From Paracoccaceae bacterium (GTDB lineage: Bacteria; Pseudomonadota; Alphaproteobacteria; Rhodobacterales; Rhodobacteraceae): a stretch of 64,000 nt of DNA. Each line of letters starts with the position of its first letter. The stretch's first letter is position 1. The notes beneath the pieces are model-generated. The model was not told the DNA's origin. It did no database searches and saw only the letters and a list, made by a program, of their open reading frames with translations. Where the stretch lies: positions 1-64,000 of the forward strand of contig JANSYP010000010.1 of assembly GCA_024742405.1 (NCBI GenBank). The letters run 5' to 3'. Made by a program: the position numbers and the translations under genes. Shown one piece after another: positions 17,483 through 58,948 of the stretch.

Positions 17483-18004
17483 CTAGGCCGAGCTGGCTTT
17501 GCGGATCACGAAGGCGAGCACGATCAGACCCGCGCCGTTGAACAGCAGCTCGATCCCAAGCAGAATTCCCAGAAGCTGAGGCGCAACCTCGAAGAAGTTC
17601 GCCGCGATGAACCCCGCCAGCAACACCGACAGCGCGCCCGACAGCAGCATCGGCCAGAAAAACTCGCTCTGCTTCATCCGGAACGCCAGTATCAGCCGCA
17701 GAATCCCGCCGGCGGCGAAGATGATCGTGACCAGAAGCGCCAGCGACAGAACACCCTGAAGCGGATGGAAGGTCAGCGACACGCCCAAAAAGATCATCAA
17801 CAGGCCCAGAGCGATCCCGAGCAGCTTTGCGCCCGCGCCCACCTGCTGAAACCCGATCACGGTCTGGAACACGCCCGAGACGAGAAACAGGATGCCGGCC
17901 AGCGTCGTTACCGCGATCGAGGCTGCAAAGGGATGCGCGAGCACGAAGATGCCGAACGCGAGGGACAAAAGGCCGAGCAACAGCCATGAGATCCAGGTTT
18001 TCAT
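17483..18004 (-). CDS. HdeD-family membrane protein (DUF308)
   Basis: The 173-residue protein has six hydrophobic helices in three hairpins, with short polar loops, the pattern of HdeD/DUF308 proteins (LLLGLLSLAFGIFVLAHPFA; LGIALGLLMIFLGVSLTFHP; LSGALSVLLAGFIAANFFEV). In enterics HdeD is linked to acid resistance, but the molecular role is unknown and the name should be read as a family label. It starts 27 bp after leuC ends, on the same strand, so it may be read through from leuC. Confidence 0.85.
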   Translation of the reverse strand: MKTWISWLLLGLLSLAFGIFVLAHPFAASIAVTTLAGILFLVSGVFQTVIGFQQVGAGAKLLGIALGLLMIFLGVSLTFHPLQGVLSLALLVTIIFAAGGILRLILAFRMKQSEFFWPMLLSGALSVLLAGFIAANFFEVAPQLLGILLGIELLFNGAGLIVLAFVIRKASSA

Positions 18005-37534: not shown

Positions 37535-38277
37535 AGCTTTCGGCGTCTTGGGCACGGATTGCGGCTGGGTACGGTCGGTGCGGCACGCTCCGCGCAGGCC
37601 GACGCGCCGCGCGATTGGTATTCAGGCCTGAGATGAAACTGCGTGGCAGTGGGGTTCCGGTGCAAGCACTCAAGGCAGGCGTTCCTGCTGCTTCAATGGG
37701 TTGGCCTGCTTGCGATGGGACGCGATGTGCGGACCCTGTCCGGCGGATGTAAGGGGTGTGATCGGGAAATGCGCGTTCGATTAAGCCTGTCAGGCAAGGT
37801 CGTTTCCTGGCGCCGGTTTGCGCCGGGACAGCGGGCCTGGGGCAGGAAATTGCGTGCGCGGGCGGCAAGGGGCCGATTTCGTCACCGCCAGGCTGTTTTA
37901 ACAAGGAAATGCCGTGAGTTAGAGCCGGAAATGCGACGCGCGCCATTGACCTGACTGCCCTGAGATGAAACCCTGAAATTGTGCGCGATAGGTCGGTTTC
38001 CCGACCGCTGGGGCGCAGGATCTCAACAGAGCCGCAACCACTTTCACCGCATGACGCCACCACAGAAAACCGAGCTACCGCAAAGAGCGATGACCCATGG
38101 CGGTATCGGCAGACCGGGCATGCGCGGCCTCGTCCGGATCACCGGGCCGAAGGGCGCGGCAGTCTGTTCTGCGACGCCGCGCGCGCGCGCGCGACCTGGC
38201 AATGCGCCCATCCGGGTGCGGCGCCGCGATCCCGCCCTGTCTCGCGGTGCTGCGGGCCTTAACGGGACCATGGCGTG
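37535..38277. other. Long stretch without a supported gene
   Basis: No gene is supported in these 743 bases. Frames on both strands are shadows without motif or ribosome site. A simple (GC)n run lies near 38,176-38,193. A short inverted repeat, GGTCGG with CCGACC, lies at about 37,991-38,007. It separates the sulfatase locus from the sugar locus and should hold the promoter of the PfkB gene at 38278. Confidence 0.4.
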
Positions 38278-39201
38278 ATGGCGGCGCAGGCGCCAGAACT
38301 GCTCTGTGTCGGCGATATCGACATGGATCTCGTCATCCGGGTGCCGCATCTGCCCGGCCGCGACGAAAAGATCAGCGGTGATCCCGTCGCGCGCGCCCCC
38401 GGGGGGATGGCGGCAAACGTGGCGGTCGGTGCAAACCGGCTCGGTACGCCGACGCGGCTGGTCGGTGCGGTCGGCGATGACGCGATGGGCCGCGAGGCGC
38501 TGGGCTATCTCGCACGGGAAGGTGTCGATCTTTCCCATGTCGAGACCCGGGCCGGGGCGGCGACGTTCTTTTGCGTGATCCTGCTCGATGAAAGCGGGGA
38601 AAAGGCGCTGGTCCGTGCGGTGAGCGACACGTTTCTTCCCGACCCTGCGCGGCTGCGATCTGCGGCATTCAAGGGCATCCGGCATGTGCACATGACCTTC
38701 ACAGATCCCGTGCTCTCCCGCCGGACGGTCGCTCTGGCGCAGGAGGCCGGCGCGGGCCTCTCGCTCGATCTGGAGGCGGCGGACTGGATCGAGGATCCGG
38801 CCCATATGCGCCAGCTCGTGGACGCGGTGGACCTGTTGTTCACCAGCGCTACCTCTCGCGCGGCGGTCGAGGCCCGGCTGGGACCCCTGACCGCGGGGCC
38901 GGGCAAGACGATCGTGACCACGGCCGGGGCCGAGGGCGCCATGGTGGAGCACGCGGCCGGCACCGCGCGCGTCGACGGCCACCGCGTCGATGTTGTCGAC
39001 ACGCTGGGGGCGGGCGACGCGTTCGCGGCGGCGTTTCTGCACAGCTTGCTCGGTGGTGCGGCCCCCGCCGATGCGCTTGGTTTTGCCAATGCCGCAGCGG
39101 CGCTTTCGGTGCGGGCCTACGGCGCGCAGACCGGCATGGCACGGCCGGGCGAGGTGGAGAGGCTGGACGCCCAACTGTCGGGGGAGCCTCATCATGCCTG
39201 A
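38278..39201 (+). CDS. PfkB-family carbohydrate kinase
   Basis: The protein of 307 residues is a ribokinase-fold sugar or nucleoside kinase. It has the N-terminal GDIDMDLVIRVPHLPGRDEK, the glycine pair in APGGMAANVAVGANRLGTPT, and the catalytic C-terminal signature DTLGAGDAFAAAFLHSLLGG, whose Asp is the base. Substrate identity cannot be read from these; ribose, fructose, nucleosides and related sugars are all possible. It opens a three-gene plus-strand operon; the next start overlaps its stop by 8 bp. It is one of three PfkB domains within 10 kb. Confidence 0.9.
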   Translation: MAAQAPELLCVGDIDMDLVIRVPHLPGRDEKISGDPVARAPGGMAANVAVGANRLGTPTRLVGAVGDDAMGREALGYLAREGVDLSHVETRAGAATFFCVILLDESGEKALVRAVSDTFLPDPARLRSAAFKGIRHVHMTFTDPVLSRRTVALAQEAGAGLSLDLEAADWIEDPAHMRQLVDAVDLLFTSATSRAAVEARLGPLTAGPGKTIVTTAGAEGAMVEHAAGTARVDGHRVDVVDTLGAGDAFAAAFLHSLLGGAAPADALGFANAAAALSVRAYGAQTGMARPGEVERLDAQLSGEPHHA

Positions 39202-40165
39202 GCGTCGGTTCGAGTTTCAGCACCTGCTCAGCGCCCGCGGTCTGCCGGAAGCGGACGTCGCGACCATGGCGGGGCTGCACGACATCGTCGACGAGGGCGT
39301 GCTCGGGGCGTCGAACCATGTCGCGCTTGCGCTGCCTCTGGTCGCGCGGCTCGCTCGGGCCGACCGGGCCACGGCGCTGGACGAAGCGCGCGCGCTGGCC
39401 GGGTTCATCGCCGCGACGCGCGGGTCGGCGGCCCCCATCGTTGCCAATGCGCTGGCCTGGCAGACCCGCGCCATCGACGGTCTGGCGCAAGGGGACGCCG
39501 CGGATCTGCTCGCCGCGCGGGCGGCGGAATGGGACGGCAATGCCAAGGCGCGCCGCAGCCAGCTCATTTCCCATGCGGTCGAGAAACTGTCATCGATGCG
39601 CGTCCCGCTGCTGTTCGACTATTCGAGCACGGTTGCGGATGTGGTCCGCGCCTGCGCCGACCAGGGGTGCCTCGACCGGCTGGTGATCCCCGAGAGCCGC
39701 GCCATCGACGGCGGCCGGCGCTACATGACGGCGCTGTCCGATCTTGGCGTGCCGATCCTGTTTTTGCCGGATGCCGCGATGGAGTATGCCGCAGGGCATT
39801 CCGATGCGCTGCTGCTCGGCGCCGAGAGCGTGACGCGCGACGGTGGCGTGATCAACACCGTGGGCTCGCTGCCCGCGGCGCGCGCGGCCAGGGCCCGCGG
39901 CATTCCGGTCTATGGTGCGGCGGATCTCTACAAGGTGGGTGCGGCGGACGCGGCGGACGTGCCGCCACCGCCGCCGCGCAGCTACCCGTTCCTGCTGGCC
40001 GAGGGCGAGACCGCGACGACCGAGGCGCCGGAGCTGGAGATCGTGCCGCCCGGGCTGGTGACCGCTCTGCTGACCGAAGTGGGCCCGCTTGCCCCCGACG
40101 CCCTGTCGCAAGCCCTGTCACAGGCGGTGTCGGGCGTGGTGAACACCGATCCGGCGGGGGCGTGA
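39194..40165 (+). CDS. eIF2B-like protein (sugar-phosphate isomerase superfamily)
   Basis: The 323-residue protein matches the eIF2B alpha/beta/delta fold that also includes methylthioribose-1-phosphate isomerase and ribose-1,5-bisphosphate isomerase. The C-terminal Rossmann part shows IPESRAIDGGRRYMTALSDL, DAAMEYAAGHSDALLLGAES and VINTVGSLPAARAARARGIP. In the enzymes a catalytic Cys follows a short strand and a catalytic Asp sits in VGAD; here the corresponding places read FDYSST (Tyr143/Ser144) and GAES (Glu211), as in eIF2B regulatory subunits. So either the chemistry differs or it binds a sugar phosphate as a sensor. It is coupled to the preceding kinase. Confidence 0.8.
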   Translation: MPERRFEFQHLLSARGLPEADVATMAGLHDIVDEGVLGASNHVALALPLVARLARADRATALDEARALAGFIAATRGSAAPIVANALAWQTRAIDGLAQGDAADLLAARAAEWDGNAKARRSQLISHAVEKLSSMRVPLLFDYSSTVADVVRACADQGCLDRLVIPESRAIDGGRRYMTALSDLGVPILFLPDAAMEYAAGHSDALLLGAESVTRDGGVINTVGSLPAARAARARGIPVYGAADLYKVGAADAADVPPPPPRSYPFLLAEGETATTEAPELEIVPPGLVTALLTEVGPLAPDALSQALSQAVSGVVNTDPAGA

Positions 40166-40172
40166 TCTGATC

Positions 40173-41180
40173 GTGGACAGCGCGGAACTCAGCTGGGCCT
40201 TGATGCGGCGGGAGCTTGACGAACAGCCGGCGCTTCTAACGGGGATCGCCGCGGCGCTGGCGGAGGCCGCCGCGCCCTTGCGACCCACAGCCGGGACAGT
40301 CTGGGCAGGCGGCTGCGGCGACTCCATCTTCGCCGCCGAAGCGCTCGCGCCCCATTTCCGCGCGCAGGGCCACAGCTTTCGCCCCGCTTCGGCGGCGGAG
40401 CTGCTCTGGGACGCCGACATCCGCCCCGGCGACACGGTCATCGGCATTTCGATCTCCGGCTCGACGCGCCGGACGGTCGATGCGCTCCGGACCGCGCGAG
40501 ACCGGGAGGCGCGGACCATCGCCGTCACGATCAACGCAGACAGCGCGCTGGCGCAGGCTGCGGACGCGACGCTGCTGCTGCCTTACACCCCGATCAGCCG
40601 GGCGATCCCCCACGGGTTCGACTACCATGTGACGCTGCTCGCGCTGGCGGCGCTGGCAGGACCTCTGGACGGGTTCGACCCCGGGGCGCTTCTTGCCTCG
40701 GCCACGGAACCCGCGCGCGCCGATGCGGCGCGGATTGCCGAAACGCTGGCAGAGGGGGCGCGGTTTTTCTTCCTTGGCAGCGGCGGGGCGGCACGCGGCA
40801 CGGCGGCCTTTGCGGCGGCGAAGATGCATGAGGCGGGGGGGCTGGCGGCCTGGTCCTTCGAGGCCGAGAACTTCTGCCATGGCGCGCAATTCATGCTGAC
40901 GCCCGGCGACTATGTCGGGCTTTTCGGCACCGGGGGGCCGGCCGATGCCCGCACCCGCGCGTTGAAACCCGGGCTCGAACGGCTCGGCGCGACGGTCGGC
41001 GCGGCCGGGTTTGGGGCGAAAGATCCCCATGCCGGGTTGCGGGCGGCACTTCTCGGCGCGCTCCACGCCCAGGCGCTGTGCCTCGCGGTGGCCGAACGGC
41101 GCGGGCTCGACGTGACCGATCCGGCCCGGGGCAGTGCGGCCGCGGAGGTTCAGAAGGACTGGTTCGGCTGGGAGGCGTGA
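40173..41180 (+). CDS. SIS-domain sugar-phosphate isomerase-like protein
   Basis: The protein of 335 residues contains two SIS domains: the first with WAGGCGDSIFAAEALAPHFR and GISISGSTRRTVDALRTARD (serine/threonine phosphate-binding loop), the second with FFLGSGGAARGTAAFAAAKM and EAENFCHGAQF. The layout resembles GlmS/AgaS/FrlB-type ketose-aldose isomerases or deaminases. It starts with GTG, 7 bp after the eIF2B-like gene. Its stop and that of the opposing permease gene form the palindrome TGAGCGCTCA. Confidence 0.85.
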   Translation: MDSAELSWALMRRELDEQPALLTGIAAALAEAAAPLRPTAGTVWAGGCGDSIFAAEALAPHFRAQGHSFRPASAAELLWDADIRPGDTVIGISISGSTRRTVDALRTARDREARTIAVTINADSALAQAADATLLLPYTPISRAIPHGFDYHVTLLALAALAGPLDGFDPGALLASATEPARADAARIAETLAEGARFFFLGSGGAARGTAAFAAAKMHEAGGLAAWSFEAENFCHGAQFMLTPGDYVGLFGTGGPADARTRALKPGLERLGATVGAAGFGAKDPHAGLRAALLGALHAQALCLAVAERRGLDVTDPARGSAAAEVQKDWFGWEA

Positions 41181-41184
41181 GCGC

Positions 41185-42150
41185 TCAGCCGCGCTGCCTG
41201 AGCCGCGCCTTGATCCGCGCACCGATGGCGTTGTCGGTCATCACCGATCCGATCAGCAGCACCCCGATCGCCGCGAGCTGCCAGGCCTGGGAGATATTGG
41301 CGAGCTGCAGCGCGGCCTGAAGCGTCGTGACGATCAGCACTGCGAGCACCGTGCCCGAGATCCGCCCGATCCCGCCGAAGATATGCGTGCCGCCCAGCAC
41401 CGCGACCGTCACGGACAGCAGCTCCATCCCGTCGCCCGCATCGGGCCGGGCGGCCTGGAACCACGACAGCGTCATGATCGCGGCCACCGCCGCCACCGCA
41501 CCGCTCAGACAATAGAGCGCAAAGCGCAGCCGCCAGACGCGCACGCCGGACAGGAATGCCGCGCGCTCGTCATTGCCGGCGGAATAGATGTGGCTGCCAA
41601 TCCGGGTCTGCGACAGCAGGATGTGAAAGACGACGGCCATCGGGATGAAGATCACCCACATATGCACCGGCACGCCGAGCACGCGGCCCTGCGCCAGCAT
41701 GCCGAACCATTCCGGCAGCCCGCCGATCGGCGTGCCCCCGGTCAGCGCCAGCGCGAGCCCGGAATAGGCGAACATCGTCGCCAGCGTCGCCATCAGCGAC
41801 GGCACCTGCAGCACGCAGATCAGCACCGCGTTCACGGCCCCCAGCCCGGTGCCGAGCGCGAGCCCGATGAGGCAGGCGAAGCCCAGCGGCACCCCGGCGG
41901 AGAAAAGAGCGGCGATGGCCAGCCCCACCAGCGACATGATCGCGCCGATGGAGAGGTCGATCCCCGGCCCGCCCGACAGCATCACGAGCGTCTGCGCCAT
42001 GCCGAGCACACCGAGCACCGGCACGTATTGCAGGAGATAGGCGACGGTGGAGACCTGCAGAAAGCTCGGCGACAGAACCGCGCCGAGCAGGATCGCGGCC
42101 GCCAGAAGACCGACAAGCAGCAGGAACCGCTGGTGCATCGGATCGCTCAT
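41185..42150 (-). CDS. Sugar ABC transporter permease (RhaQ/LsrD-like)
   Basis: The 321-residue protein has about nine membrane helices of the BPD_transp_2 family, with VMLSGGPGIDLSIGAIMSLV near residue 57, the coupling-type segment AGNDERAAFLSGVRVWRLRF, and the C-terminal AVLGGTHIFGGIGRISGTVL. It forms the channel of a sugar importer with the second permease upstream. The start ATG overlaps the stop of that permease (ATGA). It is the last gene of the ten-gene leftward array. Confidence 0.88.
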   Translation of the reverse strand: MSDPMHQRFLLLVGLLAAAILLGAVLSPSFLQVSTVAYLLQYVPVLGVLGMAQTLVMLSGGPGIDLSIGAIMSLVGLAIAALFSAGVPLGFACLIGLALGTGLGAVNAVLICVLQVPSLMATLATMFAYSGLALALTGGTPIGGLPEWFGMLAQGRVLGVPVHMWVIFIPMAVVFHILLSQTRIGSHIYSAGNDERAAFLSGVRVWRLRFALYCLSGAVAAVAAIMTLSWFQAARPDAGDGMELLSVTVAVLGGTHIFGGIGRISGTVLAVLIVTTLQAALQLANISQAWQLAAIGVLLIGSVMTDNAIGARIKARLRQRG

Positions 42151-43088
42151 GCCGTTCGGCGCCCTTCGAGCGCATCGAGCACCAGCACGGTGATCAGCAG
42201 GCCGCCGATGATGACGGTCTCCCACAGCGAGGAGACGCCGATCAGCACCAGCCCGTTCTGGGTCAGCTTGATGAAGATCACGCCGAGCAGCGTGCCGATC
42301 AGGCTGCCGACCCCGCCTCGGATATTGGCGCCGCCGAGGATCGTGGCGGCAATTGCCTCCAGCGCGATGTTTGTGCCGATATTGACCTCGACGTTGCGCA
42401 GCCGCGCGACATAGAGCACCGCGGCAAAGCCCGCGAGCAGGCCGAGCAGCGCATAGGCCTGGATCTTGGTGCGGTCGACCCGAATGCCGACGAGCCGTGC
42501 GGAGGCTTCGTCGCAACCGACGGCCACGACCCGCTGGCCCCAGGGCATGTGCCGCAGCAGCAGATAGCAGGCGCCGTAGACCCCGCCGATGATCCAGATG
42601 CCGGCGGGCAGGCCGGCGAATTCGCCCAGCACCAGAAAGGAGAGCGTGCCGGGCAGCCCGCTGATCCAGACGCCGCCGATCACCAGAAAGAGCACGGCGA
42701 TGTAGATATACATCGTGCCCAGAGTGGCGACGATGGGCGGGACGCGGGATTTCGCGATGATGTAGCCGTTGATCGCGCCGAGCATCGCGCCCACCGCGAG
42801 GCCGACCGGGACGATCACCCAGTCCGGCATCCCCAGCTGGTAGGCCCGGCCGATGAAGACGGCCGACACCGCAACGATGCCGCCCACGCTCACGTCGATC
42901 CCGCCGAGGATGATGATGATCGTCATGCCGGCGCAGACCACGGCCAGATCGACGGAGTTGCGCAGCACGGTCGTCAGGTTGCGCTCGGTCAGAAAGAATT
43001 CCGACTGGCTCGCGAAGACCACGCAGATCGCGATCAGTGCGACCACGATCAGTGCCTCCCGTCCGACGCGTTTCGGACGGGAGGGCAA
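42147..43088 (-). CDS. Sugar ABC transporter permease (RhaP/LsrC-like)
   Basis: This protein of about 313 residues belongs to the BPD_transp_2 family: GMTIIIILGGIDVSVGGIVA, VGCDEASARLVGIRVDRTKI and the C-terminal ATILGGANIRGGVGSLIGTL. The start is uncertain. No ATG is available after the binding-protein gene; TTG at 43088 is used, while a GTG further in, preceded by GGGAGG, is also possible. Two permease genes with one ATPase and a RhaS/LsrB-like binding protein match the rhamnose and AI-2 importer layout. Confidence 0.85.
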   Translation of the reverse strand: MPSRPKRVGREALIVVALIAICVVFASQSEFFLTERNLTTVLRNSVDLAVVCAGMTIIIILGGIDVSVGGIVAVSAVFIGRAYQLGMPDWVIVPVGLAVGAMLGAINGYIIAKSRVPPIVATLGTMYIYIAVLFLVIGGVWISGLPGTLSFLVLGEFAGLPAGIWIIGGVYGACYLLLRHMPWGQRVVAVGCDEASARLVGIRVDRTKIQAYALLGLLAGFAAVLYVARLRNVEVNIGTNIALEAIAATILGGANIRGGVGSLIGTLLGVIFIKLTQNGLVLIGVSSLWETVIIGGLLITVLVLDALEGRRTA

Positions 43089-43116
43089 CGTGGCGCGCAG
43101 CCAGGAGGTCAGGGTT

Positions 43117-44103
43117 TCAGAAATCGAAACTGTCCACGTTGTCCGCGGTGAAGACCGACGGCGGGCCGAGCAGGATGATATCGTTCTCGGGCAGATACCG
43201 GATCGTCTGCTCCAGCCCGTCGATCTCGAAATCGCCTGTGATCTCGCCGCCATTCGCCAGATGGTCGCCGACCCACACGGTCAGATACCCCAGATCCGCG
43301 GGGTTCCAGAGCACCGAAAACGGCATCGCACCGGACTTGATGTAGTCGCGCGCCGTGTTGGGAGAGCAGTAGCCCGCGCTCACCACCTCGCCGATCACGC
43401 CCCCGGCCTCGACCGCCTGCGCGATGCCCGGGCAGGTGGTGGACGCCATGCCGAGCACGGCCTTCAGGTCCGGATTGCGCGTCATCGCGTCGGTGGCGAA
43501 CTGATAGGCGCGCGCGGCGGTGCCGTCGGTATGATCGACCGAGACGATCTCGATCTCGGGATAGCTGGAGGCCGCGCGTTCCTGAATCGCCGCGATCCAG
43601 TTCTGCATCGACTGGATCGTCGGGCTGTCGGACACGATGGCGATCTTGCCGGCGTCGCCGACCCGCGCGACGGTCTCGTCGAGCAGGGTATAACCCAGAT
43701 CCTGATCCAGCGCCTGGGCCACAAAGAATTGCCGGTCGGCGCCGGGCGCATCGGCGTCGGAGGTCAGAACCACGATGCCCTGTTCGCGGGCCCGGGCGAT
43801 GGCGGGTTTCAGCGTCTCCTCGTCGAGCGGCGAGATCGCGATCACGTCGAAGCCCTGGTTCACGAAGCTCTCGAAAATGCGCAGCTGGTCGGCGGCGTTG
43901 GTGCTGGTGGGCCCTTCCTGCACATATTCGACGCCGAGCGCTTCGGCGGCGCGGTCGGCGCCTTCGCGCATGGCGACATAGTAGGGAATGCCCGCGATCT
44001 GCGGGATGAAGGCGATCTGGGTGGTGTCGTCCTGGGCCGCGGCGGGCAGGGCCGCCATCAGTCCGATGGCGAGCGATGCGGGAAGCAGAGTGTTGGGTCG
44101 CAT
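43117..44103 (-). CDS. Periplasmic sugar-binding protein, RhaS/LsrB-like
   Basis: The 328-residue protein has a signal peptide (to about 24, ending ALPAAAQ) and a Peripla_BP_4 fold: FIPQIAGIPYYVAMREGADR, NAADQLRIFESFVNQGFDVI, VLTSDADAPGADRQFFVAQA and, near the end, TADNVDSFDF, which is the typical close of rhamnose and AI-2 binding proteins. The ligand is not determinable by eye. It lies 25 bp downstream of its ATPase and is followed by the two permeases, so it is the binding component of importer 1. Confidence 0.88.
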   Translation of the reverse strand: MRPNTLLPASLAIGLMAALPAAAQDDTTQIAFIPQIAGIPYYVAMREGADRAAEALGVEYVQEGPTSTNAADQLRIFESFVNQGFDVIAISPLDEETLKPAIARAREQGIVVLTSDADAPGADRQFFVAQALDQDLGYTLLDETVARVGDAGKIAIVSDSPTIQSMQNWIAAIQERAASSYPEIEIVSVDHTDGTAARAYQFATDAMTRNPDLKAVLGMASTTCPGIAQAVEAGGVIGEVVSAGYCSPNTARDYIKSGAMPFSVLWNPADLGYLTVWVGDHLANGGEITGDFEIDGLEQTIRYLPENDIILLGPPSVFTADNVDSFDF

Positions 44104-44128
44104 GAGCGGTCTCCTTGGGGCTGGTGAG

Positions 44129-44902
44129 TTAAGGGGTGGCGTCGGCGGTGCGTCGGGCGACCGAGGCGCCGGTGATCAGTCCGACCACATCCTCGGGCGT
44201 GGCCGCTGCGGTGTCGACAAGGCCCGCGTTGCGGCCGCGCCGGAGCACGGTGATCCGGTCGGCGACCTCGAACACGTCTTGGATATTGTGGGAGATCAGG
44301 ATCACGGACTTGCCCTGGGCGCGCAGCGTCTTGATGAAGCCGAGCACCTTGCGCACCTCGGCCACGGCGAGGGCTGCGGTGGGTTCGTCCATCACGATCA
44401 GATCGGCGTCGATATTGAGCGCGCGGGCGATGGCCACGCCCTGGCGCTGTCCGCCGGACAGGTATTCGACCCAGATCTGGATGTCGGGGATCTCGACATC
44501 GAGCTCGTCGAGAAGTTCGCGGGACCGGCGCTGCATGGCACGACGGTCGAGGAACGGCACGCCGGCGACAGGGCGGATGATCTCGCGGCCCAGAAAGATG
44601 TTGTCGGCCACCGTCATCTTGCCGGCCAGCGCGAGTTCCTGAAAGATCGTGGCAACCCCGCGCGACCAGGCGTCCTGGGGCGTTGCGAAATGCACCTCGC
44701 GGCCGTCCAGCTCGATCCGGCCGCCATCGGGCTGGTGTGCGCCCGCGAGCGTCTTGATCAGTGTCGACTTGCCCGCGCCATTGTCGCCCACCAGCGCCAT
44801 GACTTCGCCGCGGCGCACCTCGAAATCGACCGCATCGAGCGCCGTCACCCCGCCAAAGCGTTTGACGAGCCCGCGCATCGAGAGCTTCAGATCCTGGCTC
44901 AC
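44129..44902 (-). CDS. Sugar ABC transporter ATP-binding protein
   Basis: The protein of 257 residues is a single ABC ATPase. It has Walker A GDNGAGKST, the ABC signature LSGGQRQGVAIARAL, Walker B LIVMDEPTAAL and the H-loop ISHNIQD. Most sugar importers of this class have a double ATPase of about 500 residues; a single-domain one would work as a homodimer. GTG is the start. It is 25 bp upstream of the binding protein of importer 1 and 132 bp downstream of the TenA-like gene. Confidence 0.92.
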   Translation of the reverse strand: MSQDLKLSMRGLVKRFGGVTALDAVDFEVRRGEVMALVGDNGAGKSTLIKTLAGAHQPDGGRIELDGREVHFATPQDAWSRGVATIFQELALAGKMTVADNIFLGREIIRPVAGVPFLDRRAMQRRSRELLDELDVEIPDIQIWVEYLSGGQRQGVAIARALNIDADLIVMDEPTAALAVAEVRKVLGFIKTLRAQGKSVILISHNIQDVFEVADRITVLRRGRNAGLVDTAAATPEDVVGLITGASVARRTADATP

Positions 44903-45034: not shown

Positions 45035-45664
45035 TCAGGCACGGATCGGTTCGGCATGAAACTCTATCTCCAGATCGATGGCACGGGCAAAGGCCGCGTC
45101 GATGGCTGCGCTGTTGGTTTCGGTCTGCACCGCGTCGAGCTCTGCACAAAGCCAGTCGACACCGGCAAGGAACCGGGGCTCGGCATGGAGCGCGAACCAG
45201 TCCCGCAACGTCGGATCGGGGGCGGCCGCCCAGCCGCCGCGCTGAGCGACCTGTCCATAGCTCCATTCCGCGGCACTCATTGCCGCGATCCCGGCTGCGT
45301 AGGGGCCGGCGCGGGCGATGTCGGTCATGCCGTCGGCCAGGGCTGCCGCCGCGGGGCTGGGGCAGGGTGGGTCGCTGAGCCCGAGTGTGGCGTAGATCCG
45401 GTCGAAGAGCGCCTCCTGCTCGTTCACCAGCCCGTCGAGGATCGACACGATATGGCGGGCCGACGCCCGTGTCGGGGCCTGGGCGAGCAAGTGGGCGAAA
45501 ATTACCCGCGCGGCCCGGACGAAATAGCGTTCGTTCACGAAATACGCGTCGCGGGCCTCGGTGCTGAGCGCGCCCCGCTCCGCCGCGCGAAAGAAGGGAT
45601 GCCCGACGAACGCGTCCAGACCGGCCGCGTGGCGATGGCGCAGATCTTCGCTGAAGCGCGTCAT
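45035..45664 (-). CDS. TenA/THI-4-like helical protein lacking the usual cysteine
   Basis: The protein of 209 residues has the TenA helical fold: GLDAFVGHPFFRAAERGALS, AYFVNERYFVRAARVIFAHL, GLVNEQEALFDRIYATLGL and the C-terminal FARAIDLEIEFHAEPI with the conserved Glu. In thiaminase II the nucleophile Cys precedes a W-x-Y; here the segment reads MSAAEWSYGQV (about residues 129-139) with Ala/Glu instead, as in the cysteine-free TenA_E group. A thiamine role is therefore not assumed. It overlaps the PfkB stop (ATGA), so it belongs to the sugar operon, where a C-N bond hydrolase would fit an N-glycoside substrate. Confidence 0.75.
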   Translation of the reverse strand: MTRFSEDLRHRHAAGLDAFVGHPFFRAAERGALSTEARDAYFVNERYFVRAARVIFAHLLAQAPTRASARHIVSILDGLVNEQEALFDRIYATLGLSDPPCPSPAAAALADGMTDIARAGPYAAGIAAMSAAEWSYGQVAQRGGWAAAPDPTLRDWFALHAEPRFLAGVDWLCAELDAVQTETNSAAIDAAFARAIDLEIEFHAEPIRA

Positions 45665-46566
45665 GCGATCGGCCCCGCGGAGCCCAGGCATCGCGACATC
45701 TCCTCGCGGCTGGGAAAGGCCGAGTGCGTCCCGCGGCGCGATACGGTCAGGGCGGCGGCGGCCGCCGCTGCACGCAACGCGGCCACAGCCCGTATCCCGC
45801 GAAGGCGCGCCGCGACAAAGGTGGCGGCAAACGTATCGCCGGCCCCTGCGGTGTCGACCGTATCGACGCGCACAGCCGGCGTGGCCAGCTCGCCGTCGGC
45901 GTCATAGAGCAGCGCCCCGGCGCTGCCGAGGGTCAGCAGCACGCCGCCTGTTCCGGCCCGGTGCAGCACGGCCACGGCGCGCGCGGTGTCCTTTTGGCCG
46001 GTCAGACCCTCCAGTTCGGGCCGGTTCACGACTGCGAGGTCCACGAGCGGCCACAACGCGTCCCAGGACCAGCGGATCGGCGATGGATTGGCGACGGTCC
46101 ACGCGCCCGCTGTCCGCGCCGCCGCCAGCGCCGCGCGCGTTGTGTCCTGCGGCAGGTTGCCCTGAACGATCAGCGTATCGTCCGCGCGGATTTCGGCCAG
46201 GGTCGTCGCGGCGTCCTCCGGCGACACGGTATCGGCCGCGAAGCTGGTGGACAGGATGTGGTTTTCCCCGGCATGCGAGACATAGATGATGGATTGATCC
46301 GTCGGGATCTCGGCGACCCTAAGGGTGGCTCCGGGGATCTCGCGGCTCAGGACGGCGCTTGCGCGCGCGCCGGCCTCGTCCGCGCCGACAGCCGCCAGAA
46401 GCTGCACGTCGCAGCCCGCGCGCGCCAGCAGCAGCGCCTGGTTCAAGCCCTTGCCACCGATGTCCGCAAGCCGGCTTTCGGCGATCAGCGTCTCGCCGTC
46501 CCGCGGCAGGTGCGGCATCGTAAAGACCAGATCCTCGGTCACATTGCCCACGACATAGACCGTCAT
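45661..46566 (-). CDS. PfkB-family kinase, ribokinase-like
   Basis: The 301-residue protein shows the ribokinase fold: VVGNVTEDLVFTMPHLPRDG, SRLADIGGKGLNQALLLARA, NPSPIRWSWDALWPLVDLAV, and the catalytic signature DTAGAGDTFAATFVAARLRG. Ribokinase itself has GGKGANQA where this has GGKGLNQA. The start overlaps the stop of the LacI-PfkB fusion gene, and its stop overlaps the TenA-like start. It probably phosphorylates the imported sugar or nucleoside. Confidence 0.9.
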   Translation of the reverse strand: MTVYVVGNVTEDLVFTMPHLPRDGETLIAESRLADIGGKGLNQALLLARAGCDVQLLAAVGADEAGARASAVLSREIPGATLRVAEIPTDQSIIYVSHAGENHILSTSFAADTVSPEDAATTLAEIRADDTLIVQGNLPQDTTRAALAAARTAGAWTVANPSPIRWSWDALWPLVDLAVVNRPELEGLTGQKDTARAVAVLHRAGTGGVLLTLGSAGALLYDADGELATPAVRVDTVDTAGAGDTFAATFVAARLRGIRAVAALRAAAAAAALTVSRRGTHSAFPSREEMSRCLGSAGPIA

Positions 46567-47738
46567 GGCGTCGCTCTCAGGGTTGGTGCAGCGGCGTCCG
46601 GTCCAAGCTCGGCCGCTGGCACGCGCCGTCCCTGGGCGCCTTCGGCGGTCATCGACAGGCTCGCCGCCACGCAGGCGCCCGCGGCTGCGGTCTGCCGGTC
46701 GAAATCGTGCAAGCGCTGGCCGAGATACGCCCCGACGAAACAGTCCCCCGCGCCGGTCCCGTCCACAACGCGGACCGACGGGGCGCGCACGCGGATCGGT
46801 TCCGTCCGGTCGGCTTCGAACACCGCCGCGCCATCGGGACCAAGGGTCAGCACGACATCGCCGCGCTCGGGCAGGCCGGCGAGATAGCCCGCCATGGCGC
46901 CGACGAGATGCTCGGACGCCAGGCCGCGGCCCAGGATACGCGCCGCCGAGCGCCGGTTCACGAACACGATGTCGAGCGCCGCGACCAGTTTGGCGAACCC
47001 GTCGGCCGAGCGGTAGCGGTTGTCCATGCCGGTGTCGTGAGCGCTGACCTGCCAGCCGAGGGCGCGCAGCTGCGGCAGGACGGGCAGCAGCGCGTCCAAC
47101 TGGTAGCCGTCGGCATGCAGATGGCTTGGCCGGCGCGCCGGCAGGGTCGGCAGTTGCGGCAGCAGGTCCTGGCCGGTGAAGGTCAGCGGTTCGTTGATCT
47201 TGGTGCGGCTGCCGTCGGCCTCCAGCAGCACGATGCAGCGCGAGAGGCGTTCGCGAAACGGGCTGCGCACCGCGCGGGCGCGCACGCCGCTGCGCGAGAG
47301 CTGCTCCAGCGCCCAGAGGCTGTCGGGATCCTTGCCGATGGCCGTCGCAAGCTCCACGTCGAGCGGGCAGGGCGGCCCGAGCGCCGACGCCGCCACAGCG
47401 ACATTCGCCGCCGGTCCGCCCAGATGCTTGGAGATCCGCTCGCCGGTGATCCGGTCGTTGCGGTGGGGCATCACCTCGATCCGGGCGATCAGGTCGACCG
47501 AGATATAGCCCAGCGTCATCAGGTGGGGCCGGTCCTCGGTAATTTCGGGCTCGGGATGGGCGACCTCCGCCGGAAAGACGAACCCTTTCGGCCCGTAGCC
47601 GAGCCGCCGCATCACAGCATAGACCCGCTCGCGCGTTGCCGGCCGGACCCGTTCCGGGGCGTTCATCACGTTGGACGCCGTGCCCAGCGAAACGCCGGCT
47701 TCGCGCGCGACGTCGGCGAGGCTCGGGCGCCGGCTCAT
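46563..47738 (-). CDS. LacI-type DNA-binding domain fused to PfkB sugar kinase
   Basis: The protein of 391 residues starts with a complete LacI HTH and hinge-like head (residues 1 to about 50: RPSLADVAREAGVSLGTASN and ATRERVYAVMRRLGYGPKG). After a linker of about 20 residues comes a full PfkB domain in place of the usual sugar-binding fold (LGYISVDLIARIEVMPHRND; GGPAANVAVAASALG; LLEADGSRTKINEPL; VDGTGAGDCFVGAYLG). A kinase-fold sensor bound to a LacI head suggests an autoregulating transcription factor that senses or phosphorylates its sugar. There is no frameshift at the join. It sits mid-operon with four-base overlaps on both sides. Confidence 0.92.
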   Translation of the reverse strand: MSRRPSLADVAREAGVSLGTASNVMNAPERVRPATRERVYAVMRRLGYGPKGFVFPAEVAHPEPEITEDRPHLMTLGYISVDLIARIEVMPHRNDRITGERISKHLGGPAANVAVAASALGPPCPLDVELATAIGKDPDSLWALEQLSRSGVRARAVRSPFRERLSRCIVLLEADGSRTKINEPLTFTGQDLLPQLPTLPARRPSHLHADGYQLDALLPVLPQLRALGWQVSAHDTGMDNRYRSADGFAKLVAALDIVFVNRRSAARILGRGLASEHLVGAMAGYLAGLPERGDVVLTLGPDGAAVFEADRTEPIRVRAPSVRVVDGTGAGDCFVGAYLGQRLHDFDRQTAAAGACVAASLSMTAEGAQGRRVPAAELGPDAAAPTLRATP

Positions 47739-48505
47739 GCCGCTTCCCCGCCGGACAGGCGCGGATCGCGCCCGGTGACGATCATCTCGACGATCTCGGC
47801 GTTTTCGGTATCGCCGACATGCCGCCGTCCGACGACGCGGCCCTGTTTCATCACCACGAAATGGTCTCCGATAGCGAAGATATCCTCCAGCCGGTGGCTG
47901 ATGATGATGACCGACACGCCGTTGGATTTCAGCTGCGTGATCGTCTCGCGGACCTTCTCGATGGCGGGCGCGCCGAGATTGGCGGTGGGCTCGTCCATGA
48001 TCACCAGCCGCGCGTCGAACCCCGTCGCCCGCGCGATGGCCACCGCCTGCTGCTGGCCGCCCGAGAGCGACAGCACCGGCAGCCGCACCGACGGCACGCG
48101 CAGGCCGAGCGCGCCGAACAGCGCCTCGGAGCGCGCATTCATCGTCTGCCGGTCGAGCACGGTGAGCCCGGCGACCTTGCGCGTCAGCTCGCGGCCCAGA
48201 AAGATGTTCTGCGCGACGGTCAGATCCGGCACCAGCGCGAAATCCTGGTAGATCATCTCGATGCCCGCATCGCGTGCGCCGATCGGATGGGTGTAGCTGG
48301 CGCGCGCGCCGTCGATCAGGATCTCGCCCCGGTCGGGCAGGATGGCGCCGGCGAGCACCTTCATCAGCGTCGATTTTCCGGCCGCATTGTCGCCCACGAG
48401 GCCCAGCACGCTGCCGGGATCGAGCGCGATGCTGACATCGTTGAGTGCCGTGACCGCGCCGAAGCTCTTGGAGATGTGGCGCATCTCGACCAGAGGCGCG
48501 GTCAT
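47735..48505 (-). CDS. Sugar ABC transporter ATP-binding protein, importer 2
   Basis: The 256-residue protein is a single-domain ATPase with Walker A GDNAAGKST, signature LSGGQQQAVAIARAT, Walker B LVIMDEPTANL and H-loop ISHRLED. It overlaps the permease stop upstream and the fusion-gene start downstream (ATGA type overlaps). Together with the next permease and binding protein it forms a second, ribose-type importer. The Ala in the Walker A loop (NAAGKST) in place of the usual Gly is a minor deviation. Confidence 0.92.
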   Translation of the reverse strand: MTAPLVEMRHISKSFGAVTALNDVSIALDPGSVLGLVGDNAAGKSTLMKVLAGAILPDRGEILIDGARASYTHPIGARDAGIEMIYQDFALVPDLTVAQNIFLGRELTRKVAGLTVLDRQTMNARSEALFGALGLRVPSVRLPVLSLSGGQQQAVAIARATGFDARLVIMDEPTANLGAPAIEKVRETITQLKSNGVSVIIISHRLEDIFAIGDHFVVMKQGRVVGRRHVGDTENAEIVEMIVTGRDPRLSGGEAA

Positions 48506-49518
48506 TTCGCGTCCTCCTCTGTGCTGGCGCGGGCCCAGCTTTCGACCTTGCGGTTCAGCACCGTGTTCATCAGCACCGCCAGAACCAGAATGATGCCGGT
48601 GACGACCTGCACCCAGTAGGGGTTCACGCCCAGCAGGTTCAGCCCGTTGCGCACGAAATTCAACAGAAGCGCGCCCGCGACGGTGCCCGCGATGGTCGCG
48701 CGCCCGCCGAAAAGGCTTGTGCCGCCCAGCACGACCGCGGCGATCACCTCGAGCTCCAGCATCACCCCGGCATTGGGCGAGCCGTTCGAGAGTCGCGCCG
48801 AAATCACCACACCGCCGAGGGCCGCGAGGCAGCCGGTTAGCGCGTAGACCTTGATCTTGATCCGGTTGATGGCCAGCCCCATCACGCGGGCGGCTTCCTC
48901 GCGCCCGCCGGTGGCGAGCGCATGGAGGCCGAAGCGGGTGCGGTTCAGCAGGAACCAGCCGAGGATCGCCACAACAACGGCAATCAGAAAGGGCGCGTTG
49001 ATCCCGAAAAGGTCGCCGCGCCCGATCCAGACAAAGACCGGGTCGTTGATCGGCGTCGCGTAGCCGTCGGAATAGACGAAGGCCACACCGCGGATCGAGG
49101 TCAGCCCGGCCAGCGTCACCACGAAGGCCGGCACGCCGAGCGTGATGATCCAGCCGTTGCAGGCCCCGATCGCCGCGCCCACCACCAGCACCAGGGGGAT
49201 GACCAGCAGCGCGGGCAGGCCGAGCCCCAGCCAGCTTGCCGTCAGAACCGACACCAGCGCCACGGTCGAGCCCACCGACAGGTCGATCCCCGCCGTCGCC
49301 ATCACGAAGGTCATGCCGACCCCGATGATGATCAGCGGCGCGGACTGGCGCAGCACGTTGAGCAGGTTGGTCGTGGTCAGGAAATGCTCCGACGCCAGGC
49401 TCATCGCCACGAGCCAGAGCCCGAGCGCGATGAACATGCCGTAGCGCACCAGCGCCACGATCATCCGGCGCTGTGCCCGGGGCAGGAGGCCCGCGCTCGC
49501 CGGGGCGCTGGCGGTCAC
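48502..49518 (-). CDS. Sugar ABC transporter permease, importer 2
   Basis: This protein of 338 residues has about nine to ten membrane helices, with GVGMTFVMATAGIDLSVGST near residue 72, ATGGREEAARVMGLAINRIK and VLGGTSLFGGRATIAGTVAG, the BPD_transp_2 signatures. Only one permease gene is present for this importer, so the channel would be a homodimer. The start is GTG at 49518; the stop overlaps the ATPase start. Confidence 0.9.
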   Translation of the reverse strand: MTASAPASAGLLPRAQRRMIVALVRYGMFIALGLWLVAMSLASEHFLTTTNLLNVLRQSAPLIIIGVGMTFVMATAGIDLSVGSTVALVSVLTASWLGLGLPALLVIPLVLVVGAAIGACNGWIITLGVPAFVVTLAGLTSIRGVAFVYSDGYATPINDPVFVWIGRGDLFGINAPFLIAVVVAILGWFLLNRTRFGLHALATGGREEAARVMGLAINRIKIKVYALTGCLAALGGVVISARLSNGSPNAGVMLELEVIAAVVLGGTSLFGGRATIAGTVAGALLLNFVRNGLNLLGVNPYWVQVVTGIILVLAVLMNTVLNRKVESWARASTEEDAK

Positions 49519-49570: not shown

Positions 49571-50503
49571 TCACTGGATGTCGTCGATGTTGAACGGCGT
49601 CACGATGGTCGGGATGTAGGACACGCGCGGAGAGATCTCTTCGCCGCCCAGATGCTGGACCAGCAGCCGCACGCCCTGGTCGCCGTTGAACTCCGGCGCC
49701 TGCATCAGGAAGCCTTGCAGCCGGCCTTCCTTGATCGGGGCGACGAAATAGTCCGGGATATCGTCCCAGCCGAAGAAGGCGATATCGCGGTTCTGGCTGA
49801 GCCCGGCGGCGAGCGCGCCCTGAAGCTGCGGGTCGCCCGTGGCATAGATCAGATCGATATCCGGGTTCGCGGTGAGCATGTTCTCGGCCTCGGCGGTCGC
49901 CCGCTCCAGGATATTCCGGCCATCGCCCTCGGCAGCGAATGTGACGTTGGGCAGCACGCTCTTGATGGCATCCACGAACCCGTCGCGCCGGGCGATCTGG
50001 ACCTCGGAGGATGCGATCATGAGCCCGATGGTGGCCTCACCGTCCATCTTGCCGGCAATGTAGCCCGCCACGTAGCGGCCGAACTGGACCGAGGTGTCAT
50101 ACTGCTCCACCCCGATCAGGCTGAGGATGTTGGGATGGTCGATGCGGGTGTCCAGCGTCACCATCGGGATGCCGGCCTCCTGCGCCTGCTCGATGGGACC
50201 TGCCAGCGAGCCGCTTTCGATCGGGTCGAGCACGATCGCGTCGGCCTGCCGGGCGATGCAATCCTCCACCAGCGTGACCTGGCGCGCCGCGTCGGCCTGG
50301 GGGTCGAAAACCACCAGCTCGACGCCCAGTTCCTCGGCCGCGCGCTCCGCGCCTTCGACGGTCTTCTGGAAGTACTCGATCTGCAGCGAGAAGGTCACGA
50401 AACAGATCGTCGTGTCGCTGTCCTGCGCGGCGGCGCCCTGCGGTGCAAGTGCGGCGACGCTCAGCGCTGTTGCGGCAGTGATCGCTTTGATACGGTTCGA
50501 CAT
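49571..50503 (-). CDS. Periplasmic sugar-binding protein, ribose type, importer 2
   Basis: The 310-residue protein has a signal peptide (to about 26, APQGAAAQ) and a Peripla_BP_4 domain: FVTFSLQIEYFQKTVEGAER, DPQADAARQVTLVEDCIARQ, VTLDTRIDHPNILSLIGVEQ and the hinge region FFGWDDIPDYFVAPIKEGRL. It is the first gene of the leftward array, directly under the divergent control region with two TTGAA-N4-TTCAA dyads. Confidence 0.92.
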   Translation of the reverse strand: MSNRIKAITAATALSVAALAPQGAAAQDSDTTICFVTFSLQIEYFQKTVEGAERAAEELGVELVVFDPQADAARQVTLVEDCIARQADAIVLDPIESGSLAGPIEQAQEAGIPMVTLDTRIDHPNILSLIGVEQYDTSVQFGRYVAGYIAGKMDGEATIGLMIASSEVQIARRDGFVDAIKSVLPNVTFAAEGDGRNILERATAEAENMLTANPDIDLIYATGDPQLQGALAAGLSQNRDIAFFGWDDIPDYFVAPIKEGRLQGFLMQAPEFNGDQGVRLLVQHLGGEEISPRVSYIPTIVTPFNIDDIQ

Positions 50504-50524: not shown

Positions 50525-50538
50525 TTGAAACTTTTCAA
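50525..50538. promoter_or_regulatory. TTGAA-N4-TTCAA dyad, copy 1
   Basis: TTGAAACTTTTCAA lies 22 bp upstream of the importer 2 binding-protein start, in the divergent space with the BtpA-family gene. The same TTGAA-N4-TTCAA pattern recurs at 50688-50701, inside a longer perfect dyad. Its position over the promoter of the array that encodes the LacI-PfkB fusion makes it a candidate operator for that protein. Confidence 0.5.
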
Positions 50539-50561
50539 TTCTTGAACTGCTTATCGACGGT

Positions 50562-50586
50562 GATCAACGATTTGTTGATCTTTTTT
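50562..50586. promoter_or_regulatory. Stem-loop followed by T-run in divergent region
   Basis: GATCAAC (50562-50568) pairs with GTTGATC (50574-50580) over a 5-nt loop and is followed by six T (50581-50586). This has the shape of a weak intrinsic terminator for rightward transcription, yet it lies upstream of a rightward gene, so it might attenuate transcription or be another protein-binding dyad. Confidence 0.45.
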
Positions 50587-50648
50587 CCGCCGCATCGCAA
50601 AACGGCGGGCATAAGAAATCCCAAAAAGCAATAACGGAGTGCAGAGTC

Positions 50649-51500
50649 TTGGCAATTTCATCGAAAGCGGACGCGGGTGACCAAATTTTGAACATATTCA
50701 AAATTCGCCGTGCGGTGATCGGTGTGATCCATTGCCCGGCCTTCCCCGGAACGCCACGCCATGACGGGCGCGATCCCGAGCAGATCTATGACGCGGCCCT
50801 GCGCGATGCCCTGGCCTATGCCGAAGGCGGTGTCGATGGGCTGATCGTGGAAAACCACGGCGATATCCCGTTCCTGCGGCCCGGCGATATTGGACCCGAG
50901 ACGGTGGCCTACATGACGGCCGTGACCCGGCGCGTGTTGGACGAGGCGGGACTGCCCACGGGCATCAACATCCTGGCCAATGCGCCGATCCCGGCCTTTG
51001 CCGTGGCCGCGGCGAGCGGCGCCAGCTTCATCCGCGTGAACCAGTGGGCCAACGCCTATGTCGCCAACGAAGGGTTGCTCGACGGTGACGCGGCGCGCGC
51101 CCTGCGCTACCGCAAGCAGATCGCGGCGGAGGGCGTCGCGGTCTTTGCCGACGCCCATGTCAAGCACGGCGCCCATGCCATCACCGCCGACCGCTCCGTC
51201 GAGGAGCTGACCCGCGATCTGGAGTTCTTCGACGCCGACGTGGTCATCGCCACGGGCCAGCGCACCGGCGACGCTGTGACCGATGCGGAGCTGCAGACAG
51301 TGACAGGGGCGACGGGCCTGCCGGTCATCGTGGGCTCCGGCGTCACGCAAGAGAATGTCGGGCGGATCCTGTCTCAGTCCCGCGGCGCCATCATCGGCTC
51401 TTCGTTGAAGGAGGGCGGCGTCTGGTGGAACCCGGTGGAGACCGCGCGGGTCGCGCGCTTCATGGAGACCGTGCGCGAGGTCCGCGAGGCACATCCATGA
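50649..51500 (+). CDS. BtpA/SgcQ-family TIM-barrel protein
   Basis: The protein of 283 residues belongs to the BtpA family: IRRAVIGVIHCPAFPGTPRH, GVDGLIVENHGDIPFLRPGD, ASFIRVNQWANAYVANEGLL and VIVGSGVTQENVGRILSQSR. Cyanobacterial BtpA is needed for photosystem I stability and SgcQ lies in an enteric sugar operon; no enzymatic activity is established to my knowledge. The TTG at 50649 has ACGGAG upstream; the operator-like dyad 50684-50705 then falls in codons 12-19, or in the leader if a later TTG is used. It is divergent from the sugar array. Confidence 0.85.
   Translation: MAISSKADAGDQILNIFKIRRAVIGVIHCPAFPGTPRHDGRDPEQIYDAALRDALAYAEGGVDGLIVENHGDIPFLRPGDIGPETVAYMTAVTRRVLDEAGLPTGINILANAPIPAFAVAAASGASFIRVNQWANAYVANEGLLDGDAARALRYRKQIAAEGVAVFADAHVKHGAHAITADRSVEELTRDLEFFDADVVIATGQRTGDAVTDAELQTVTGATGLPVIVGSGVTQENVGRILSQSRGAIIGSSLKEGGVWWNPVETARVARFMETVREVREAHP
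50684..50705. promoter_or_regulatory. Perfect 9-bp-arm dyad containing TTGAA-N4-TTCAA, copy 2
   Basis: AATTTTGAA (50684-50692) and TTCAAAATT (50697-50705) are exact complements around CATA. Its core repeats the TTGAA-N4-TTCAA pattern found at 50525. It lies at the very start of the BtpA-family frame, 163 bp from copy 1, a layout compatible with repression through a DNA loop. Confidence 0.55.
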
Positions 51501-57928: not shown

Positions 57929-58948
57929 TTGACGCAAAAAGTGACACGCAAGAGGCGCGCGACGCTGCGCGACGTTGCTCAGGCCGCGGAGGTTTCGGTT
58001 GCCACGGTATCGCGGGTGCTGAATGCCCCGGCCACGGTCTCGCCGATCACGCGGGAGCGTGTGGAGGGGGCCATCGACAATCTGCGGTTCATGCGCAGTC
58101 CGGCCGCCCGCGCGATCAATTCCGGCCGCACCCGCGCCGTCGCGGCGCTGGTCCCGACTCTCGATCACGCGATCTTCGCGCGCTTTCTGGGCGCGATGGA
58201 AACCCGGCTGGGCGAGCTCGGCCTGTCGCTGCTGGTCGCCACAACCGGTGGAGACCCGGATCTTGAGGAGCGTAAGGCCTGGGGGCTGGTGGAGATCGGG
58301 GCCGAAGGGCTGATCGTCTCCGGTGTCTCCCACAGCACCGGGCTCGACCGTCTCGCCGACCGCCATGACCTGCCGATCGTTGCGACCTCCTTTTTCGACC
58401 CCGACGCCACAATGCCGACCATCGGCTATGACAATCGGGCCGTGGCGCGGACCGCGCTCGATCATCTGACCGCTCTCGGCCACCGGCGGATCGGCGTTAT
58501 CCACGGGCCGCTGGAGGGCAATGACCGCACCCAGGCGCGGCTCGATGCGCTGAAGGCGTCGTCTGATCGCGCCCAACTGAGCTTTCATGCGGGTGATCTC
58601 GGGGTCGGGGGCGGCTGCCGTGCCACCGCCGCGGCGCTCGCACTGCCGGACCGTCCCACAGCACTGCTCTGCCTGTCGGACGTGATCGCCCTCGGCGCGA
58701 TGTTCGAACTACAGCGCGCAGGTCTCGGCATACCCGGTGACATGTCGGTGATCGGTATCGACGATCTCTCCTGGTCCAAACACAGTGCGCCCGGTCTGAC
58801 ATCGGTCAGCCTGCCGGTCTCCGAGATGGGGGCCGAGGCCGCCGCGGCCCTGGCCTCCTGGATCGAAACGCAGGAACGGCCCGACCACCGCATCCTCTCC
58901 CACCTGCTGGTTCCGCGCGGCTCCACCGGCCCGCCCTCCGGGGTGTGA
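57929..58948 (+). CDS. LacI-family transcriptional regulator
   Basis: The protein of 339 residues has a LacI HTH and hinge (about 10-60: ATLRDVAQAAEVSVATVSRV, LNAPATVSPITRERVEGAID) and a periplasmic-binding-protein-like effector domain (about 70-335: ALVPTLDHAIFARFLGAMET, ALGHRRIGVIHGPLEGNDRT, LLCLSDVIALGAMFELQRAG). The TTG at 57929 has AAAAGGG upstream and gives the usual family length; an ATG at 57881 lacks a ribosome site. It is divergent from the GcvT-transporter operon and probably represses it through the palindrome at 57838. Confidence 0.9.
   Translation: MTQKVTRKRRATLRDVAQAAEVSVATVSRVLNAPATVSPITRERVEGAIDNLRFMRSPAARAINSGRTRAVAALVPTLDHAIFARFLGAMETRLGELGLSLLVATTGGDPDLEERKAWGLVEIGAEGLIVSGVSHSTGLDRLADRHDLPIVATSFFDPDATMPTIGYDNRAVARTALDHLTALGHRRIGVIHGPLEGNDRTQARLDALKASSDRAQLSFHAGDLGVGGGCRATAAALALPDRPTALLCLSDVIALGAMFELQRAGLGIPGDMSVIGIDDLSWSKHSAPGLTSVSLPVSEMGAEAAAALASWIETQERPDHRILSHLLVPRGSTGPPSGV

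Follow-up and report, generated by a model that had tools for sequence, protein, structure and literature searches.

LacI-type regulators are a textbook case of a transport-protein fold turned into a sensor. The ROK regulators, such as NagC and Mlc, combine a winged helix-turn-helix (HTH) with an actin-like sugar-kinase fold as sensor, and YeiI of Escherichia coli has the layout HTH-PfkB. We know of no operator for YeiI or for RikA/STM3547 of Salmonella. YeiI is listed as a hypothetical regulator (PMC6055005), and RikA is active as a ribose kinase and has a DeoR HTH that is possibly left untranslated (PMC13432705). BzdR consists of an XRE HTH and a shikimate-kinase domain that has lost its kinase activity (PMC3602430). 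Yeast Gal3p is a kinase-like protein that acts as a sensor by binding sugar and ATP, with no catalysis (PMC3409070). Our literature search, whose coverage mostly excluded subscription papers, found no description of a LacI-PfkB protein.

The fusion protein analysed here is encoded in a window of 64,000 nucleotides (the whole stretch of DNA that was studied). Like the GalR-LacI regulators, it has an N-terminal LacI HTH and a palindromic operator-like dyad by a sugar operon, and most related fusions also have the hinge helix and the central CG; unlike them, it has a PfkB kinase domain instead of the periplasmic-binding-protein domain, and the clade of the window lacks both hinge helix and central CG. 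With the PfkB/ribokinase kinases it shares the Pfam family and the motifs GG..N, TLG..G and DxTGAGD, but it has the LacI HTH at its N-terminus, and no fusion has the Glu of the NXXE motif. BzdR would be alike in its working, with a small-molecule kinase recruited as the sensor of a pathway regulator, but its HTH is of another class and its kinase fold is unrelated to PfkB; neither the XRE HTH nor the shikimate-kinase domain has a match in the fusion in Pfam or among the NCBIfam matches listed. The ROK regulators also join an HTH to a sugar-kinase fold as sensor, but the winged HTH and the actin-like fold are theirs and not the fusion's, and the ROK domain has no match in it in Pfam or among the NCBIfam matches listed. 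In RikA and YeiI an HTH precedes a PfkB kinase, as in the fusion, but it is not of the LacI type. Gal3p resembles the proposed protein in using a kinase fold as small-molecule sensor, but has another fold and works through Gal80p rather than by binding DNA. Because the LacI HTH and the PfkB profile with its signature motifs are present, and the LacI effector domain and the NXXE motif are not, we would file LacI-PfkB as an architecture of its own and not as a plain member of either family.

A LacI-type head and a PfkB kinase domain in one frame

Pfam places the LacI HTH and the PfkB kinase in one frame, each above its cut-off (56 bits against a cut-off of 27 for PF00356), as a preliminary description made from the sequence had proposed (Table 1). 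These are the only Pfam matches of the protein, and it has no periplasmic-binding-protein-like effector domain. The PfkB body that stands where LacI proteins carry that domain has the motifs GGPAAN, TLGPDG and DGTGAGD, which bears out the earlier reading on this point too. In sequence comparison, solved ribokinases are the closest to the kinase part, and CcpA and LacI to the head. The head had been described as a full LacI HTH with a hinge-like part: the HTH stands, but the canonical hinge helix (xARSL) is replaced by PKGFVFPAE. The segment after the HTH is similar in the two nearest relatives, reading PKGFVFP, PKGFVYP and PKSLVFP in the window, L009 and L049, and the canonical helix is kept in the Rhizobiaceae, L040 and L042 homologues. 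AlphaFold models (2 and 5 sequences) were of low confidence (mean pLDDT 42 and 45), the HTH alone being fair.

Table 1. Coordinates of the fusion gene, its neighbours and the operator-like dyads in the window.
Feature	Position	Strand	Basis
LacI HTH - PfkB kinase fusion protein, 391 aa	46563..47738	-	ORF and Pfam; 15 intact fusions
LacI-type helix-turn-helix, residues 7-50	47589..47720	-	Pfam PF00356, E 2.8e-15
Linker, residues 51-71; canonical LacI hinge helix absent	47526..47588	-	Alignments
PfkB/ribokinase-family domain, residues 72-370	46629..47525	-	Pfam PF00294, E 2.2e-33
Position of the Mg-binding NXXE motif, here NRRS, residues 261-264	46947..46958	-	
Catalytic motif DGTGAGD, residues 326-332	46743..46763	-	
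RbsB-like substrate-binding protein, first gene of the operon	49571..50503	-	
ABC permease	48502..49518	-	
ABC ATPase	47735..48505	-	
Separate ribokinase-like PfkB kinase, intact NXXE motif (NRPE)	45661..46566	-	
TenA-family protein	45035..45691	-	
Second ABC set: ATPase, substrate-binding protein, two permeases	41185..44902	-	
BtpA/SgcQ-family protein, divergent from the operon	50649..51500	+	
Cassette PfkB kinase, ribose-1-phosphate-kinase-like, below cut-off	38275..39201	+	
IF-2B-like sugar-phosphate isomerase of the cassette	39197..40165	+	
SIS-domain protein of the cassette	40173..41180	+	
Predicted operator TTGAA-ACTT-TTCAA, 21 bp before the ATG of the substrate-binding protein	50525..50538	.	
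Second dyad TTGAA-CATA-TTCAA, within the first codons of btpA as called	50688..50701	.	

The sugar-kinase and sugar ABC surroundings are as first described. The operon begins at 50503, has the fusion as its fourth gene, and runs through substrate-binding protein, permease, ATPase, fusion, ribokinase-like PfkB, TenA and the second ABC set; the ATPase and fusion genes overlap by 4 bp. A cassette of PfkB, IF-2B-like and SIS genes faces this operon from the side opposite btpA. Three neighbourhoods recur among the fusion loci, each with ABC genes: the PfkB/IF-2B/SIS cassette (window, L040, L072, L073, L075, L077), a GATase1-like gene with a DapE deacylase (L041, L050, L051, L065, L074, L076), and BtpA/ribokinase/TenA (window, L009, L049). 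L042 has a peptide-type ABC set and a GATase1-like gene as neighbours. In 10 of the 15 loci (window, L009, L049, L040, L041, L072, L073, L075, L076, L077), the stretch read also contains a separate PfkB kinase. The IF-2B-like cassette enzyme was found in 2/200 Rhizobiaceae and 2/246 Rhodobacterales, in these samples only in genomes with the fusion. The cassette enzymes are nearest to ribose-1-phosphate kinase and ribose-1,5-bisphosphate isomerase; since these NCBIfam matches lie below cut-off, a pentose or pentose phosphate as the sugar is a lead only. The cassette itself (38275-41180 in the window) is rare in both sampled groups and possibly represents an undescribed sugar-phosphate pathway.

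We found 15 intact single-ORF fusions, the window copy included, in Rhodobacterales and Rhizobiaceae. Those of the Rhodobacterales beyond the window are from Oceaniglobus indicus (69%), a Roseivivax marinus plasmid (66%), L040, L041 and L042, the last being a second copy in Oceaniglobus. The nine from Rhizobiaceae include Rhizobium etli 8C-3. The fusion occurs in 4/395 sampled Rhodobacterales genomes (counting the genome of the window) and 7/299 Rhizobiaceae genomes. No further fusions came from 385 genomes drawn across the class, and a phylum-wide draw of 299 genomes gave one more, in a Rhizobiaceae genome. The family is thus rare, at about 1-2% of sampled genomes, and it is concealed in databases, where annotated copies carry only the name "PfkB family carbohydrate kinase". 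A profile of the fusion family scores fusions at 466-648 bits and stand-alone kinases at most at about 120. In a quick tree (LG+G4, rooted by midpoint only), a branch with SH-aLRT 100 separates the kinase domains of the fusions from those of 50 stand-alone kinases. The simplest reading of this tree is one fusion event.

Operator-like dyads at the fusion loci

A scan of upstream regions brought up the dyad TTGAA-N4-TTCAA. Its exact form occurs twice in the 64-kb window, compared with 0 occurrences in 100 shuffles, and both copies lie within the operon's divergent promoter region, in the interval 50525-50705 that had been proposed earlier for DNA-binding experiments. The whole 5.0 Mb genome has 5 exact sites. 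For the dyad at 50525-50538, each of the two nearest relatives has an aligned copy with one mismatch. The one at 50688 overlaps btpA codons that are partly conserved as protein, a constraint that in part accounts for this dyad, and we rejected giving the two dyads equal weight.

The same kind of site accompanies the fusion elsewhere. Each of the nine Rhizobiaceae loci has TTGAA-nCGn-TTCAA some 12-16 bp ahead of the fusion's start codon (the start in L065 is uncertain), with transporter genes downstream; the candidate operator in Rhizobium is TTGAAGCGCTTCAA. Across spacings of 0-12, the fusion loci have 15 matches at spacing 4, nine at spacing 5, and 0-1 at the others, compared with 0 at spacing 4 and 1 at spacing 5 in the control loci (222 kb). 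No exact spacing-4 dyad was found in the 49 control loci, which have no intact fusion. In L040, L041 and L042 the sites are at the promoters of the ABC genes. The L040 site has one mismatch and no exact one was found there; the promoter region of L049 likewise has one-mismatch sites and no exact dyad. An exact L049 dyad at 17926 was set aside as chance, as it lies inside a nikB-type permease gene.

The hinge helix of LacI reads the central CG of the operator. This CG is present in the sites of the Rhizobiaceae, L040 and L041 and absent from the window's own, and the clade of the window also lacks the hinge-helix motif. The joint loss fits binding of these dyads by the fusion, because the part of the protein that reads the CG is missing together with the CG. 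Both losses are, however, one evolutionary event.

Two further elements were seen near the sites. In 9/9 Rhizobiaceae loci (L050, L051, L065, L072-L077), a second dyad, TTGAA-N5-TTCAA, lies 84-136 bp beyond the spacing-4 site, in distance classes of 84-95 and 132-136 bp; the odd spacing and the two classes might reflect looping or another protein. In the window, the inverted repeat GATCAACGATTTGTTGATC at 50562-50580, with a T run after it, lies between btpA and the ABC operon. It is terminator-like on the + strand, yet lies within the promoter region.

In our assessment, the fusion is best explained as a one-component LacI-type regulator, most likely a repressor, whose sensor is a recruited PfkB kinase of the pathway, a reading to which we assign a probability of roughly 0.6. 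The broader proposal of the preliminary description, a regulator with a kinase-fold sensor, is well supported at the sequence level by the conserved operator-like dyad, purifying selection on the HTH (see below), and the cassette enzyme found only with the fusion. The LacI-type HTH would bind, as a dimer, the TTGAA-N4-TTCAA dyads next to its own operon, and binding would repress because of the short distance between the site and the first gene of the operon. A promoter scan found no sigma-70 consensus promoter at the window or L051 operators, so the repressor sign is taken from the position of the site. The PfkB ribokinase-fold domain, probably derived from a kinase of the same sugar pathway, would replace the periplasmic-binding-protein domain as sensor. 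It would bind the imported sugar and probably ATP, and closure of the kinase lid, relayed to the HTH, would release the operator; the ABC transporter and catabolic genes would then be made only when the sugar is present. Catalysis by the fused kinase is probably weak or lost, and bulk phosphorylation may fall to the separate kinase nearby. We see a slightly better than even chance that these proteins are an undescribed class of transcription factors, with a LacI HTH and a ribokinase-fold sensor that derives from the kinase of the pathway itself and binds sugar and ATP, possibly with turnover as a timer, and with a subclade devoid of hinge and CG. If the regulator reading is true, the same LacI head has been re-used with an enzyme of the regulated pathway as sensor.

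Kinase site, HTH and competing readings

The preliminary description held that the fusion might also phosphorylate its sugar, and had allowed for a kinase site without the residues for its ligands. By alignment, the substrate-site and GAGD residues are present. The protein could then be truly bifunctional, an efficient sugar kinase and a repressor at once, with substrate binding or turnover, or the phosphorylated product, setting DNA binding. This agrees with the conservation of the substrate (base) Asp and of DxTGAGD in 14/15 fusions each and of GG..N in 15/15, and with purifying selection on the kinase domain. The retention of GAGD and the sugar base counts against our preferred reading, since it exceeds what a pure sensor would seem to need unless ATP binding matters. 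However, the NXXE Glu is present in 0/15 fusions compared with 40/50 stand-alone kinases from the same searches. The motif takes part in Mg binding in the PfkB family (PMC5931981), and a change of its Glu, E242K, abolishes adenosine kinase activity (PMC3118340). The separate PfkB kinases at 10 of the 15 loci also speak against a catalytic role. Phosphorylation by the fusion is thus a conjecture, even with the catalytic Asp kept, and we regard efficient bifunctionality as unlikely, though a serious contender.

The loss of the Glu was at first taken as the mark of a dead kinase, a view that we softened because related kinases also lack it. These are the cassette kinases of the window (38275), L040, L072, L073, L075 and L077, together with L056, and in the midpoint-rooted tree their branches adjoin those of the fusions, though support is modest (80-93). 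The six cassette kinases sit in catabolic operons, in favour of the bifunctional reading, and are presumably active, so the loss of Glu does not prove inactivity. Their position points to this kinase subfamily as the source of the fused domain, which may hence see the same substrate. In L042 (3828-5165), the catalytic motif has degenerated to DEGGMDD and the base Asp has become Glu. This fusion lies beside an oligopeptide-type ABC operon, with two dyads, one exact and one mismatched, in the divergent promoter. Loss of the motif with retention of the dyads is as expected of a regulator freed from catalysis. The fusions thus provide a natural series, from an intact catalytic motif through NXXE loss to the loss of the catalytic motif in L042, with operator-like sites retained, which makes the question of how an enzyme becomes a regulator directly testable.

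An ordinary kinase, with the HTH as a passenger or untranslated, is a quite improbable reading. Its precedent is Salmonella RikA, in which the annotated DeoR-type HTH is seemingly skipped (PMC13432705), and the window protein has a Met ahead of the kinase domain (MTLGY), but no conserved position across the family holds an internal Met. Close pairs have a dN/dS of 0-0.12 in the HTH and 0.01-0.31 in the kinase domain (Nei-Gojobori counts, with some synonymous sites saturated), and the linker is under weaker constraint than either. Both domains are thus under purifying selection. The HTH is the best-conserved part (85% identity and dN/dS 0.09 between window and L009), which indicates that it is selected as protein and speaks against the untranslated HTH proposed for RikA. 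The dyads, moreover, track the fusion.

It is highly improbable that another LacI-family regulator acts at the dyads and that the fusion has other targets. Half-sites of this sort are plausible for several LacI proteins, and the genome encodes others of this type, one of them at about 57950 in the window. The dyad is, however, directly before the fusion gene in the nine Rhizobiaceae loci and has no exact copy in the 49 control loci. An artefact, i.e., a sequencing error joining two genes, is refuted by the same in-frame join in the 15 intact ORFs from different genomes, and none of the homologues was found split into two separate genes.

The regulator at 57947-58945 in the window is an ordinary LacI-type protein whose HTH shares 51% identity with the fusion's over 45 residues. 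Rhizobium sp. T1473 was considered as a case of a head without kinase and rejected, as its gene is a fusion that breaks off near residue 156. In T1473 and T1470 (L052, 6900-7435), the fusion gene stops after about 156 residues and is 95% identical to that of R. etli up to the break. A BtpA/ribokinase/TenA cluster adjoins the cut-off gene.
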